The notes beneath the pieces were generated by a model. The model was not told the DNA's origin. It worked only from the letters and a program-made list of their open reading frames with translations, and made no database searches. This document shows, piece after piece, positions 39,747 through 44,399 of a stretch of DNA of 64,000 bases. Both the position numbers and the translations under genes were made by a program. The stretch comes from Streptococcus oralis. GTDB taxonomy: Bacteria; Bacillota; Bacilli; Lactobacillales; Streptococcaceae. The stretch covers positions 1,069,001 through 1,133,000 of the forward strand of contig NZ_CP065707.1 in NCBI RefSeq assembly GCF_016028255.1. The letters run 5' to 3'. Each line of letters starts with the position of its first letter. Positions within the stretch are counted from its first letter, which is position 1.

Positions 39747-41283
39747 AGATTGAAGACAAACATTCCAAATGGTGTTTGTCTTTTTCTGTTTGTCAGGCTA
39801 AAATTCCATCTTTTGATAGAATAATGGTCATTTGAACAAAATAAAAAGGCTTGTCCACCCTCATTTTTACTAGTTTTTTGAGATTCAAACACGCTAAAGT
39901 AAGCCCAATCTTATCTTCCATCTTGGACTTGCCTTTCCCTCTTGTATAACGGAGGTTGTGGTATTCTTTGGCAGTCCCAAAGAGTCGCTCAATTATTTCT
40001 TTGCGCTTCTTATAAAGCTCCTTCATCCCTCTTTGGTGTCGAATCTCTTCACAATATTCAAGGTCGTCTTTCCATACATGTCTTGTGATGACTTTCTGCT
40101 GATTCTGGCTCTGTATACAAACGGATAATAGGGGACAGGCGATACATACTTTTGGATCACTCTTATACTCACGATAGCCTGCTCGGGTCGTCGTGCGATA
40201 GGCTAATACTTGGTTCTCTGGACAGAGGTAACAGTCATAGAAGGCATCATAAACAAAATCACCGGGTCTTAAGTTCCCCCTTACTCCCTTGGGGCGGGTA
40301 TAGGGGAAGACAGGGATAATGTTTCGCTGTAATAAATAATGGGCAATAGCTGGGGTCTTATAGCCTGAGTCCGCAATAATGTAGCGTGGGGAGAAAGCTT
40401 CTAACTTTGAAAAAAGGGCAGGGAAAGCCTGACTGTCGTGTACATTTCCTGCTTCAACACTATAAGCCAAGGCCCAACCATGCTTATCACACGCTACTTG
40501 GGCAGAATAGGCAAATACTTCCTTGTGTTCCCCCTTGTGGAACCAACCACTCTCAGGATCTGTCCTTGAGATTTTCTTTTCCTTAGCCTCGCTTTCTTTT
40601 GCGGGCTTTAAGGACTTTTTTTCGTGTTTTCTCCTATCTACATCAATCTCAACTTCCAATTGCTCACTCATAAATTTAGCTTGTTGGGCAACCATTTCCT
40701 TATGATACTTGTGACTGTTAGCTGTAGCTTTGATATGGGTACCATCCACAAATATTTCCGAAGGATCCATTAAACCAGCAAATAAAGCTTGATGGAGTAC
40801 TTGTAAAAATATCTCGGTAATCAGTTCTTTATCTTGAAAGCGACGACTGTAATTCTTTCCATATATGGTAAAATGAGGCACCTTGTCATCCAAGCTTAGT
40901 CCAAGAAACCAACGATAGGCTACGTTTACTTCAATGTTTTTAATGGTTTGGCGCATGGAGCGAATGCCATAAAAGCATTGAATCAAAGGAATTTTGACTA
41001 ACATGACGGGATCGAGACTAGGACGACCATTATCTGGACTATAGGTATCCTCAACTAAGTCATAGATAAAGTCAAAATCAACCTCTGATTCCACTTGGCG
41101 AAGAAAGTGATCTCTTGGGACCAATTCGTCTATCGTATAGAAGCCATATTGGCAGAGATGATAATCTGGTTTTTCTTTGTGAAACATAGTTAGCACCTCA
41201 CAACTTTTCTTACCTCTATGATACAACTTTACAAAAAGAAAAGCCCTTAGAAAAGTGTCTTCTAAGGACTTTGTCTTCAATCT
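39747..41283 (-). mobile_element. IS1182-type insertion sequence
   Basis: About 1.54 kb bounded by inverted copies of AGATTGAAGACAAA (39747-39760 and 41270-41283) with one transposase gene on the minus strand. Both ends touch hairpins: an 11-bp hairpin on the left and a 9-bp GGAGCC hairpin (41285-41306) on the right. No clear target duplication is visible, so the exact ends may be off by a few bases. Confidence 0.85.
39793..41187 (-). CDS. IS1182 family transposase
   Basis: 464-residue transposase that moves the insertion sequence. ATG 41187 has GAGGT 7 bp upstream; the frame is open further but that part leaves the element. The N-terminal DUF772-type region (HFLRQVESEVDFDFIYDLVE, later GRPSLDPVMLVK) is followed by the DDE domain with FVDGTHIKATAN, IIADSGYKTP and a C-terminal ERLFGTAKEYHNLRY. 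A Cys cluster (YDCYLCPENQ, CIACPLLSVC) is typical of the family. Complete and probably active. Confidence 0.93.
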   Translation of the reverse strand: MFHKEKPDYHLCQYGFYTIDELVPRDHFLRQVESEVDFDFIYDLVEDTYSPDNGRPSLDPVMLVKIPLIQCFYGIRSMRQTIKNIEVNVAYRWFLGLSLDDKVPHFTIYGKNYSRRFQDKELITEIFLQVLHQALFAGLMDPSEIFVDGTHIKATANSHKYHKEMVAQQAKFMSEQLEVEIDVDRRKHEKKSLKPAKESEAKEKKISRTDPESGWFHKGEHKEVFAYSAQVACDKHGWALAYSVEAGNVHDSQAFPALFSKLEAFSPRYIIADSGYKTPAIAHYLLQRNIIPVFPYTRPKGVRGNLRPGDFVYDAFYDCYLCPENQVLAYRTTTRAGYREYKSDPKVCIACPLLSVCIQSQNQQKVITRHVWKDDLEYCEEIRHQRGMKELYKKRKEIIERLFGTAKEYHNLRYTRGKGKSKMEDKIGLTLACLNLKKLVKMRVDKPFYFVQMTIILSKDGILA

Positions 41284-41284
41284 G

Positions 41285-41306
41285 AAAGGAGCCAAATGGC
41301 TCCTTT
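41285..41306 (-). terminator. Terminator hairpin of the FMN-reductase/apbE operon, touching the IS
   Basis: Stem AAAGGAGCC / GGCTCCTTT, loop of 4. For minus-strand transcription the T tract is cut to TTT by the IS end one base further. Confidence 0.65.
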
Positions 41307-41314
41307 TTGGTTTC

Positions 41315-42559
41315 TTAGTTGCTTGCGCCAGAAGTAGCGTCAGCGTCACCACCGTGGCCTCCAGCATCCCCTGAATCAGAAGCGCCAGAAGTAGCATCGG
41401 CGTCTCCATGACCTCCAGCAGCTGGAGCAAATGGTCCGCTACCACCTACCAAACGTTGACCAGTTTCTTTTAGGTACCAGTCAAGCCATGGTTGGAAGTT
41501 AAACACGATTTCATTGATACCAGCGTATGATCCGTCAGGATAGTACATCGCTTGGTAGTTGTGGGTGTTGATGACACCTGTAGGAGAACCTGGAACGATA
41601 GTACGGACGTATTCTTGGTTTCCGTTGCGAAGTGTTCCGATAACCCACTCCACGTTCTTCATACGTGCTGGTGGAAGAGAATTATGAACAGTCGACATAC
41701 GGCTACCTGATTGAGGTGGCACACGTTTGGCAAACATGGTGTCTGGATCTTGGTGAGCGTTGTTGTAGTATAGGAATTGGTTGTTGTCGTCAGCGTATGT
41801 CAATTCAAATGGCATAGCTTTCAAGAACATATCAATTTGATTAACTGTCAAGATACCGTGGTCCAATTTGACATAGGTATCACCAGAAACAGCGCCAGTG
41901 ATTGCTGCAACTTTTTCTACCCATTCTGGATCGTCAGGATCAACTTCAGTAATGGTTGTAGCAATTGGTTTTCCACAATCCAAGTCTTCTGGTTCGATTG
42001 GTTTTGGTTTTTTCAATTTCGAAACGACTCCTACGTATTTTACAAAGTTATCTAAGCAAGTTTCAAGGAATTTAACAGTTCCTTCGTTGGTGATATTTCC
42101 GTTGTTATCAAAAGCTTCCTTAGCTTTACCAAGAAGGAATTCGTTACCTGGAAGCGTGTAGGCATTGACACCTGGAGCATCAAGGATTTTACGAAGGTGA
42201 ACTTGGGCACGTGATGTTCCTTGGTCATAGTATGATGCACCCACAATCATAACAGGCTTGTTTTCAAATGGATGAACTTCGTATGAAAGCCATTCGAGTA
42301 CAGATTTAAGTGAAGCTGAGATAGTGTGGTTGTGCTCAGGAGTAGCGATAATAACACCATCAGCACGTGTAATCTTGTTATACAAGAAACGCAATTGGAA
42401 GCTTTCGTCCCATTTTTCGTCTTGGTTAAACATTGGAACTTCGTCGATTTCAAGGACTTCTAATTCAAATTTGAATTTGAAATTGCGACGAATAAATTCC
42501 AAGAGTTTGCGGTTATATGATTGATCGTAGTTTGATCCAACAAGTCCAACAAATTTCAT
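41315..42559 (-). CDS. NAD(P)H-dependent FMN reductase with PAS-like domain and twin flavinylation tail
   Basis: 414-residue three-part protein. Residues 1-190 are an NADPH-dependent FMN reductase fold (GSNYDQSYNR near the N-terminus, TPEHNHTISASLK). About 215-365 resembles a PAS_10/DUF438-type sensor domain (LKAMPFELTYADDNNQFLYYNN split from NVEWVIGTLRNG). The Gly/Ala/Asp tail holds DATSGAS twice, at 388-394 and 407-413, separated by a GGHGG linker. This fits the ApbE acceptor pattern D(G/A)x(S/T)GA(T/S), in which FMN is esterified to the last Ser/Thr. No signal peptide, so it should be cytosolic. It lies in one operon with an FMN-reductase paralogue and apbE. Confidence 0.85.
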   Translation of the reverse strand: MKFVGLVGSNYDQSYNRKLLEFIRRNFKFKFELEVLEIDEVPMFNQDEKWDESFQLRFLYNKITRADGVIIATPEHNHTISASLKSVLEWLSYEVHPFENKPVMIVGASYYDQGTSRAQVHLRKILDAPGVNAYTLPGNEFLLGKAKEAFDNNGNITNEGTVKFLETCLDNFVKYVGVVSKLKKPKPIEPEDLDCGKPIATTITEVDPDDPEWVEKVAAITGAVSGDTYVKLDHGILTVNQIDMFLKAMPFELTYADDNNQFLYYNNAHQDPDTMFAKRVPPQSGSRMSTVHNSLPPARMKNVEWVIGTLRNGNQEYVRTIVPGSPTGVINTHNYQAMYYPDGSYAGINEIVFNFQPWLDWYLKETGQRLVGGSGPFAPAAGGHGDADATSGASDSGDAGGHGGDADATSGASN

Positions 42560-42576
42560 TCTTTCGGTCTCCTATC

Positions 42577-43182
42577 TTACAAATTTTCCCAGTCAAATTC
42601 TTCTGCATCTTTGCGAAGCAATTCTTGTGCATTGCGCAATTTCTCAGTAATCTTCACGAAGATACGGAAGTCATCAAAGATGGCATCCAATTTCTTGATG
42701 ACGTCAAGATCAACCAAGTCACCACTTGGGTTAAATGCTTGAAGAGAGTGTGAGAGCAAGAATTCATCTGGTAGAACATTTGCCTTGATTTCAGGAGCGT
42801 TCAAGATTTGACGAAGTTGCAATTGGGCACGAGATGAACCAAGTGTACCGTAGGAAGCACCAGTGATCATGATTGGTTTGTTCAAAAGTGGGTAGATACC
42901 GTAAGATAGCCAAGCAAGAGCGCTCATCAAAACTGCAGGGATAGAGTGGTCGTACTCAGGAGTACCGATAATCACACCATCAGCCTCTTCAATTTTAGCT
43001 GCAATCTCAAGAATTTCAGCTGGAAGTTGCTTATCTGCTGGTTTGTTGAAAACAGGGATATCCTTGATTTCAACGAGTTCAATTTCAGCTTTATCAGCAA
43101 AGTGTTTTTGCATGTATTGGAGCAATTGGCGGTTTGTAGAACGTTTAGAGTTCGTTCCAACAATGGCAATAAGTTTTAGCAT
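42577..43182 (-). CDS. NADPH-dependent FMN reductase family protein
   Basis: 201-residue flavodoxin-fold reductase, clearly paralogous to the N-terminal domain of the next gene in the operon (GTNSKRSTNRQLLQYM, then TPEYDHSIPAVLMSALAWLSYG). It lacks the PAS-like domain and the flavinylation tail. It presumably uses NAD(P)H to reduce flavin or a flavin-bound partner. It lies 18 bp after apbE in transcription order and 17 bp before the fused reductase. AAAGGAAA is upstream of the start. Confidence 0.88.
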   Translation of the reverse strand: MLKLIAIVGTNSKRSTNRQLLQYMQKHFADKAEIELVEIKDIPVFNKPADKQLPAEILEIAAKIEEADGVIIGTPEYDHSIPAVLMSALAWLSYGIYPLLNKPIMITGASYGTLGSSRAQLQLRQILNAPEIKANVLPDEFLLSHSLQAFNPSGDLVDLDVIKKLDAIFDDFRIFVKITEKLRNAQELLRKDAEEFDWENL

Positions 43183-43200
43183 GAGATTTCCTTTCTCTTT

Positions 43201-44163
43201 TTACATAATACAATTTTGAAGGCCTGAAGAACATGCAAGGCGTCCTTCTTTGTCGATGAGGATGGCTTCAATACCATCTATACTTTCGACTTGCCAGAGG
43301 ATAGAAGCGCTTCGCTCTCCGAATAGGCGAGTTGTCCAAATCTCACCATCAACGGATTTATCAGAGATAATCGTTAGGCTAGCGAGATCGGTTTCGACAG
43401 GGAATCCTGTCTCACTATCAAAGATATGGTGATAGTCTTTTCCATCTACTGTCAGGTGGCGTTCATAGATACCTGAAGTGACAACGGATTTGTTAGAAGC
43501 AGGGATAGTTAGGAGATGATTGCCACGAGGATTTCGCGGATCTTGAATCCCAATCTGCCAGGCTTTCCCGTCTTTGACTTGATTGTTCCCGATGGTGAGG
43601 ATATTTCCTCCGAGATTGATCAAGGCAGAGGTGACACCGTGTTCTTTCAAATACTGGGCAACCTTATCTGCACTATAGCCCTTAGCTAAACAACCTAAAT
43701 CAAGCTTCATTCCTTTCTTCTCTAAAAAGACAGTAGAGCTAGTCGGATCCAACTTGATAAAATGCGGGTCAACTAGTGGCAAGACAGCTTCGATTTCTTT
43801 GGAGTCTGGAAGCCGTGCATCTGCAAATCCGATTCGCCAGGTTTGAATCAAGGGACCAATACTGATATTTAGATGGCTAGATGGAGCTAGACTATGTTCT
43901 AACCCTAGAGCAATCAGTTCAAACAGGTCAGGATGAACCTTAACAGGTTTGATTCCAGCCTGGTAGTTGATTTCCATCAGTTCGGATTCTTGACTGTTGG
44001 CGTTAAAGCGGTATTCGAGTTCCTTGAGCAAATCAAAGGCTCCTTGAAGTAGGCAATCAGCCTGTTCATCTACTAATGAAATCGTGATCGTTGTTCCCAT
44101 TAGCCGTTCAGAACGTGAATGAAGAGGCAAGCTACCAGCTCCTTTCTCTTTATAGGAAATCAT
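43201..44163 (-). CDS. apbE: FAD:protein FMN transferase (ApbE family)
   Basis: 320-residue enzyme that transfers FMN from FAD to Ser/Thr of target proteins. Family motifs are [35 protein letters not shown] and [12 protein letters not shown], the last two in the Mg/FAD site. The first 20 residues ([16 protein letters not shown]) contain no signal peptide or lipobox, whereas most ApbE proteins are exported, so this one should act in the cytosol. It is first in an operon with two FMN reductases, one of which carries two acceptor motifs. Confidence 0.92.
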
Positions 44164-44370: not shown

Positions 44371-44399
44371 TTGTAAACGCTAACAGTAAATGATATACT
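44371..44399 (+). promoter_or_regulatory. nox promoter
   Basis: TTGTAA (44371-44376), 17-bp spacer, TATACT (44394-44399) with extended TGA. The rest of 44164-44370 is AT-rich, with nothing else recognisable. Confidence 0.7.
44372..44385 (+). promoter_or_regulatory. cre site overlapping the nox -35
   Basis: TGTAAACGCTAACA matches the cre consensus TGWNANCGNTNWCA at every position. Covering the -35, it would block RNA polymerase when CcpA binds. Confidence 0.85.

Follow-up and report, generated by a model that had tools for sequence, protein, structure and literature searches.

In a 64,000-nucleotide stretch of the Streptococcus oralis genome (NZ_CP065707.1, positions 1,069,001 to 1,133,000; hereafter the window), we found a three-gene operon that we read, with moderate rather than high confidence, as a module for flavinylation in the cytosol that has a single evident substrate. 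The operon runs from apbE through the gene for a 201-residue tailless reductase of the FMN_red family to the gene for a 414-residue protein that joins an FMN_red domain to a PAS_10 domain and a flexible tail, all on the reverse strand and separated by intergenic gaps of only 18 bp and 17 bp, respectively. Order, coordinates, strand, and lengths are as the first-pass annotation of this DNA gave them, and the tail carries the motif DATSGAS twice, at residues 388 to 394 and 407 to 413, as it had claimed. From the motif, the operon, its conservation, and a close experimental precedent in Lactococcus, we infer that the tail very probably bears covalently bound flavin mononucleotide (FMN).

The target pattern of ApbE enzymes is D-x-x-[S/T]-G-A-[S/T] (PMC12052999), which we used as the strict motif alongside a relaxed form, D..[ST][GAST][AS][ST]. 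Both copies in the 414-residue protein satisfy the substrate pattern, and a chance origin is rejected by shuffling: two motifs arose in 1 of 20000 shuffles of the 43-residue tail and at least one motif in 1.5%, and when the last 50 residues of 120 homologues were shuffled, a motif appeared in 0.74 tails on average, compared to 101 observed. No motif occurs within residues 1 to 340 of these 120 fusion frames (40800 residues). A recent duplication is rejected as well, since the acceptor serines of the two window copies are encoded by different codons, TCT and AGC; among homologues, the acceptor codons are TCN in 155 cases, AGY in 58, and threonine codons in 7. An AlphaFold2 model of the protein (75-sequence alignment) has a mean predicted local distance difference test score (pLDDT) of 82 and falls below 50 over residues 377 to 407, consistent with a disordered tail. 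The PAS_10 region matches 2qkp, the C-terminal domain of SMU_1151c of S. mutans, in Foldseek (E 8.1e-11), and no FMN_bind domain (PF04205) was matched by Pfam in the 414-residue protein.

The source genome, one contig of 2,024,323 bases (2.02 Mb), encodes a single ApbE and gave no match to FMN_bind. A degenerate DNA version of the motif has 22 matches genome-wide, two of which are the window tail. Fourteen of the remaining 20 were read in six frames; eight of them spell the strict motif, all within stop-to-stop frames of 11 to 53 residues, and six do not, and, to judge by the matched letters, the last six contain a stop (four matches) or a tryptophan at position 4 (two matches). Among frames of at least 60 residues in the whole genome, the strict motif occurs only in the window tail, in its two copies. 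With a single ApbE and strict motifs confined to this tail, the genome thus offers one evident substrate with two sites.

Searching 295 Lactobacillales genomes, we found the fusion in at least 120, a lower bound, and fetched all 120 loci to read their tails, 30 of them with only 1.5 kb of flank. Rather than mostly lacking the tail, these homologues keep the strict motif in 101 cases and the relaxed motif in 118, with strict motifs numbering none in 19 tails, one in 18, two in 56, three in 20, four in 6, and six in 1; the linkers of the tails differ in length and sequence. In all 120, the gene immediately upstream is an FMN_red frame of the same orientation that has no motif, not even a relaxed one. 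The co-occurrence of tail and ApbE, which the first-pass annotation had proposed to look for, holds at genome level: ApbE is present in 120/120 fusion genomes versus 144/175 others (Fisher p 5e-8). Among protein-database homologues, the strict motif is found in 119 of the best 120 of 1404 matches, a count that includes two short forms (P0049 and P0098) with the tail motif before position 340. Comparison with homologues thus strongly supports the proposed intracellular flavinylation of the tail.

Two variants were seen among the tails. Nine homologues (P0010, P0015, P0016, P0019, P0045, P0049, P0050, P0055, and P0098), four of them labeled S. pneumoniae, have DATAGAS as their second motif, so that only the first is strict, and a 539-residue fusion frame at L132:3812-5428 (+) has six strict motifs, the highest count among the 120.

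The ApbE of the window is a member of the FAD:protein FMN transferase family (FAD, flavin adenine dinucleotide) with that activity predicted: it scores 261 bits against PF02424 (curated cut-off, 25.6), its best PDB match is an FAD:protein FMN transferase (7esa, 1.7e-81), and FMN transferases in PDB align to it across residues 15 to 316. Its first 45 residues show neither strong hydrophobicity nor a lipobox, and both reductases begin directly at their FMN_red domain in Pfam, so the absence of export signals claimed for enzyme and target is borne out and an extracytosolic reading is rejected. Under the stricter of two tests, none of the 67 complete ApbEs neighboring the fusions has a signal (hydrophobic N-terminal stretch or lipobox); under the more permissive one, the same 67 yield one weak hydrophobic stretch (L050, 1.89 versus a cut of 1.8) and no lipobox. 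The permissive test found a hydrophobic stretch in 20/20 nonneighboring control ApbEs of related genomes and a lipobox in 18/20; these controls were hand-picked from the best 150 matches as likely second or exported copies, so they show that the test works and not how frequent signals are. By this measure of N-terminal signals, the system is cytosolic. The neighboring ApbEs carry the form D[GA]E..[ST]T, with E in 73 of 97 and the expression unmatched in 24, compared to DGD...T in the exported ApbEs, with D in 13 of 20 and 7 unmatched. The second aspartate of DGD...T is a metal ligand, and the exchange of E for D could mark a cytosolic ApbE clade. Separately, two exported-type ApbEs (L284 and L285) carry DVTSGAS just after the signal peptide, a position that looks as if self-flavinylation were possible.

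Flavinylated FMN_red proteins with tails are already on record. PMC11334425 (2024) describes FMN_red proteins with C-terminal extensions of one or two motifs encoded near apbE, mostly in Firmicutes, and reports that co-expression with the cognate ApbE leads to flavinylation of those from L. lactis and L. taiwanensis, which is lost in alanine mutants of the predicted serine/threonine. With its FMN_red domain, C-terminal motif extension, and adjoining apbE, the window protein belongs to this type and is not the first of its kind; it probably differs in having a PAS_10 domain between reductase and tail and a partner gene, the architecture of the tested Lactococcus proteins being judged here from their relatives. 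Of 16 nonfusion FMN_red loci chosen from the same family, mainly from Lactococcus, 14 encode motif-like tails (proteins of 198 to 337 residues; 12 strict and 2 with only DADTGST), indicating that FMN_red proteins commonly have a tail but no PAS there, while the PAS fusion occurs in L. hircilactis and further members of the genus. A protein search from a Lactococcus-type relative returned L. garvieae, L. fujiensis, and others but no L. lactis among the best 120 of 778 matches. The word PAS is absent from the text of PMC11334425, and what the present comparison adds is that the tail goes with a PAS module. A cytosolic ApbE acting on a soluble enzyme has a parallel in Klebsiella, where a cytoplasmic signal-less ApbE acts with soluble fumarate reductase (review, PMC12052999). 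Nqr/Rnf-type flavoproteins are defined by the FMN_bind domain PF04205, which is missing from the window protein and from our genome searches. The FMN of the Klebsiella fumarate reductase, too, is on a folded FMN_bind domain and not on a disordered tail. Of the new design that the first-pass annotation had envisaged, only part stands as new: among the papers listed in our literature search, none ties the tail to PAS proteins by its title or opening abstract lines, whereas the flavinylated tailed FMN_red and the cytoplasmic ApbE were known.

Two further known systems resemble the operon. The FRedA/FRedB-LjPAS system of L. johnsonii also has two FMN reductases in succession and a PAS_10 protein, with the difference that PAS is a separate gene there and fused in the window. 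FRedA and FRedB bind FMN and oxidize NADH (reduced nicotinamide adenine dinucleotide) only as a heterodimer, using FMN as substrate and producing H2O2, and the same paper already noted that PAS is fused to FMN reductase in other species (PMC4500961, 2015). Hydroxycinnamate reductase HcrA/HcrB (PMC10295242) pairs a small FMN_red partner with a large protein that starts with FMN_red, as in the window. HcrB-type L171 combines FMN_red with FMN_bind and FAD_binding_2 and has DAVSGAS at 252, whereas the window protein shares only FMN_red with it and has PAS plus tail. L171, L172, and L176 were assigned as HcrA/B-type from domains and gene pair and not from a named match.

A tree of 73 FMN_red domains (FastTree, midpoint root) included 26 of the 120 partner/fusion pairs, 8 Lactobacillus FRed sequences (two of ten having been dropped by a filter beforehand), 7 tailed Lactococcus-type proteins, and 3 each of HcrA-type and HcrB-type. 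The sampled partners, all 26, form one clade (0.94), which joins the HcrA-type proteins (0.96), and each of the 26 fusion domains falls with the HcrB-type proteins (0.99), indicating that the partner-plus-carrier pair is old; what differs by branch is the carrier flavin module, FMN_bind versus PAS plus tail. The eight Lactobacillus FRed sequences fall outside the 58-sequence clade of partner, HcrA, fusion, and HcrB (support, 0.99), so that orthology of the window reductases with FRedA/B is rejected, and the tailed Lactococcus-type domains also lie outside the partner and fusion groups. The tailless paralogue pointed out in the first-pass annotation is present, but given its invariable upstream position and a clade of its own, we prefer to read it as a partner subunit that always accompanies the fusion.

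We propose that ApbE would use FAD to link FMN to two serines of the disordered tail, Ser394 and Ser413, through phosphoester bonds. The 201-residue partner and the FMN_red domain probably form a heterodimer that would oxidize NADH or its phosphorylated form, with a noncovalent FMN at the interface, as their constant adjacency, kinship with HcrA/HcrB, and analogy with FRedA/B suggest. The FMNs of the tail may then serve as tethered, nondiffusing electron acceptors that swing to the reductase site, become reduced, and pass electrons on, a role for which we see about an even chance. The PAS module would be the companion of the tail, probably positioning it or docking the next partner, and the electron acceptor would most likely be O2, giving superoxide or H2O2, or another flavoprotein. 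The whole would correspond to the first half of an HcrB-type protein, FMN_red then FMN_bind, with PAS plus tail in place of FMN_bind.

Several observations weigh against this reading. Nineteen of the 120 fusion homologues lack the strict motif; 17 of these keep the relaxed form, mostly with S for G (DxxSSAS), and two have lost even that, L110 with the aspartate replaced by N and H and L124 with a degenerate motif, yet their genomes keep ApbE. ApbE lies within the fetched flank in 97 of the 120 loci (with the short flank of 30 loci to be kept in mind), and 2 of these 97 have it on the opposite strand (95 on the same strand). Moreover, as the Lactobacillus FRed sequences fall outside the partner and fusion clades, the biochemistry of FRedA/B transfers by analogy only.

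Members of the genus Lactobacillus encode the PAS protein in a gene of its own, with a relative in 27 of 31 genomes, and the tail sits on this protein and not on the FRed reductases. Twenty-seven of 29 PAS frames end in one to three motifs (e.g., DATTGAT, DTATGAS, and DTSSGAS), L158 and L160 being the two without a terminal motif. Among the best 120 of 200 database matches, 85 PAS homologues are 220 to 299 residues long; the strict motif is found in 84 of them, and 58 have three motifs. By its published primers, LjPAS begins with MAEPKWL and ends with SGASEY, matching the tailed loci that we fetched, so LjPAS of L. johnsonii is likely an ApbE substrate. In 5/5 Lactobacillus genomes examined, the single ApbE gene encodes a signal-less protein and follows the FRed pair in the same orientation, with a phosphatase-like gene (named by eye) in between and one more gene in G009 and G087. 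The words ApbE, covalent, and flavinyl- are absent from PMC4500961, whose strain table has LjPAS produced in E. coli without its own ApbE; its tail was thus probably unmodified in the published assays.

The tail is also found on other Lactobacillus redox enzymes. A scan of two genomes for the strict motif gave 31 pattern matches, 30 with loci, including the C termini of an SpxB-type pyruvate oxidase (617 bits, just below the NCBIfam cut-off of 638, in a frame open at its start) and an L-lactate-oxidase-like FMN_dh protein (388 bits, well below the cut-off of 646), along with a YtxH-like protein, FMN_bind proteins, and PAS proteins; an FtsH-like match (L316, named by eye) and a helix-turn-helix match (L321) were set aside as chance or in-domain matches. 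Across the 31 Lactobacillus genomes, pyruvate oxidase gave 31 rows with 26 intact near homologues (L343 to L367 and L371), all 26 with a strict C-terminal motif and 24 with two; left out were the pieces L368, L369, and L393, L372 with an internal stop, and the distant L370, which has no motif. Lactate oxidase gave 29 rows with 24 intact near homologues (within L373 to L396), 23 of them strict and one with the relaxed DAVSSAS, after leaving out four pieces (including L400, with two motifs) and the distant L397 without a motif. Genome G406 (L402:3366-8509) encodes consecutively a lysR gene product, lactate oxidase, pyruvate oxidase, PAS protein, and acetate kinase, of which lactate oxidase, pyruvate oxidase, and PAS protein are all tailed. 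These tails hint at an unrecognized flavin-arm system, and among the matches listed in our literature search, judged by titles and opening abstract lines, none ties the tail or ApbE to PAS proteins, pyruvate oxidase, or lactate oxidase. The small YtxH-like protein (L322:1057-1545 (+) and L327:1060-1554 (+); Pfam was run on L322 only) has a short hydrophobic N terminus and DSNSGAS or DTNSGAS near its C terminus, making a membrane-anchored flavin carrier possible.

Could the tail merely secure the reductase's own FMN in the usual FMN_red site, with no relay? This is how PMC11334425 reads the Lactococcus FMN_red proteins, whose predicted sites it locates near the flavin site, on a C-terminal extension that is unstructured, and we estimate from the model that about 40 disordered residues would suffice for the tail to reach that site. 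Such anchoring fits poorly with up to six motifs per tail, with a Lactobacillus tail carried by the PAS protein instead of the reductases, and with tails on pyruvate and lactate oxidase, enzymes that have flavin sites of their own, and we regard it as unlikely; tethered carriers would better account for the multiple motifs, the loose linkers, and the Lactobacillus split. Less probable still is that the PAS-tail unit is a regulatory or assembly device for heterodimer formation and docking to membrane or partner, its flavin being a redox sensor and not a carrier. LjPAS, described as a regulator, slowed the start-up of FRedA/B in vitro and improved the solubility of FRedA (PMC4500961), and L. delbrueckii pyruvate oxidase without its last 34 residues largely loses lipid activation, from ~6-fold to ~2-fold (PMC7245740); still, the LjPAS of the published assays probably had an unmodified tail, and a sensor has no obvious need of two to six copies. 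That the motifs are not flavinylated here, being low-complexity look-alike repeats or decayed sites, as the richness of the tail in Gly, Ala, Asp, and Ser and the degraded motifs of some homologues (DATAGAS and DATSSAS) might suggest, is very improbable given the shuffling results, the retention of the acceptor serine in both codon families, the constant co-occurrence with ApbE, and the experimental precedent in Lactococcus (PMC11334425).

Table 1. Positions of the operon and associated features within the window
Feature	Coordinates	Strand	Remarks
apbE, FAD:protein FMN transferase, 320 aa	43201-44163	-	first gene of operon
Partner FMN_red, 201 aa, without tail	42577-43182	-	PF03358, 121 bits
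FMN_red-PAS_10-tail protein, 414 aa	41315-42559	-	presumed ApbE substrate; Pfam FMN_red + PAS_10
FMN_red domain of 414-aa protein, aa 1-147	42119-42559	-	
PAS_10 domain of 414-aa protein, aa 242-355	41495-41836	-	PF13596, 76 bits
Flexible tail of 414-aa protein, aa 367-414	41318-41461	-	Gly/Ala/Asp/Ser-rich; low pLDDT
ApbE motif 1, DATSGAS, aa 388-394	41378-41398	-	candidate acceptor Ser394
ApbE motif 2, DATSGAS, aa 407-413	41321-41341	-	candidate acceptor Ser413
Stem-loop just 3' of operon	41284-41307	-	possible terminator; 10-pair stem

The stem-loop behind the operon (Table 1) was listed on the forward strand and, as an inverted repeat, can fold on both strands; the T run that follows it on the operon strand is weak. 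A transposase gene (DUF772, DDE; 39793 to ~41187, reverse strand) lies some 130 bp beyond the reductase gene; its mechanically called open reading frame overlaps the tail codons, but its likely start, judged by eye, is near 41187. Upstream of a divergent NADH oxidase gene, a site resembling a catabolite-responsive element (cre) at 44371-44385 (+) overlaps a promoter-like site and perfectly matches the CcpA cre consensus; the window holds two matches to this consensus versus 1.25 expected by chance.

A common rationale for ApbE-mediated flavinylation is that it prevents the loss of flavin outside the cytosol (PMC11334425). A conserved cytosolic system with at least two sites per disordered tail does not fit this rationale and thus needs another explanation, such as tethered carriers. 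More surprising is what lies beyond the window, where the tail has spread to LjPAS and to two oxidases, those of pyruvate and lactate. We tentatively suggest, as a conjecture that is more doubtful than the module itself, that the DxxSGAS tail may serve lactic acid bacteria as a portable flavin arm in the cytosol, with one signal-less ApbE loading the disordered C termini of several enzymes to form a soluble flavin-based electron-transfer network. Its substrates would be the FMN_red-PAS protein in streptococci and the LjPAS-type PAS protein, pyruvate oxidase, and lactate oxidase in Lactobacillus. If so, tethered flavins would let an NADH reductase exchange electrons with the oxidases that form H2O2 in the lactate-to-acetate pathway, in a network without membrane or cytochrome. 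L. delbrueckii pyruvate oxidase, like LjPAS, may have been studied in its unmodified form if its C terminus resembles the tails found here, and if FMN is attached to the oxidase tails, a component would be missing from the present picture of how lactobacilli control H2O2 formation.

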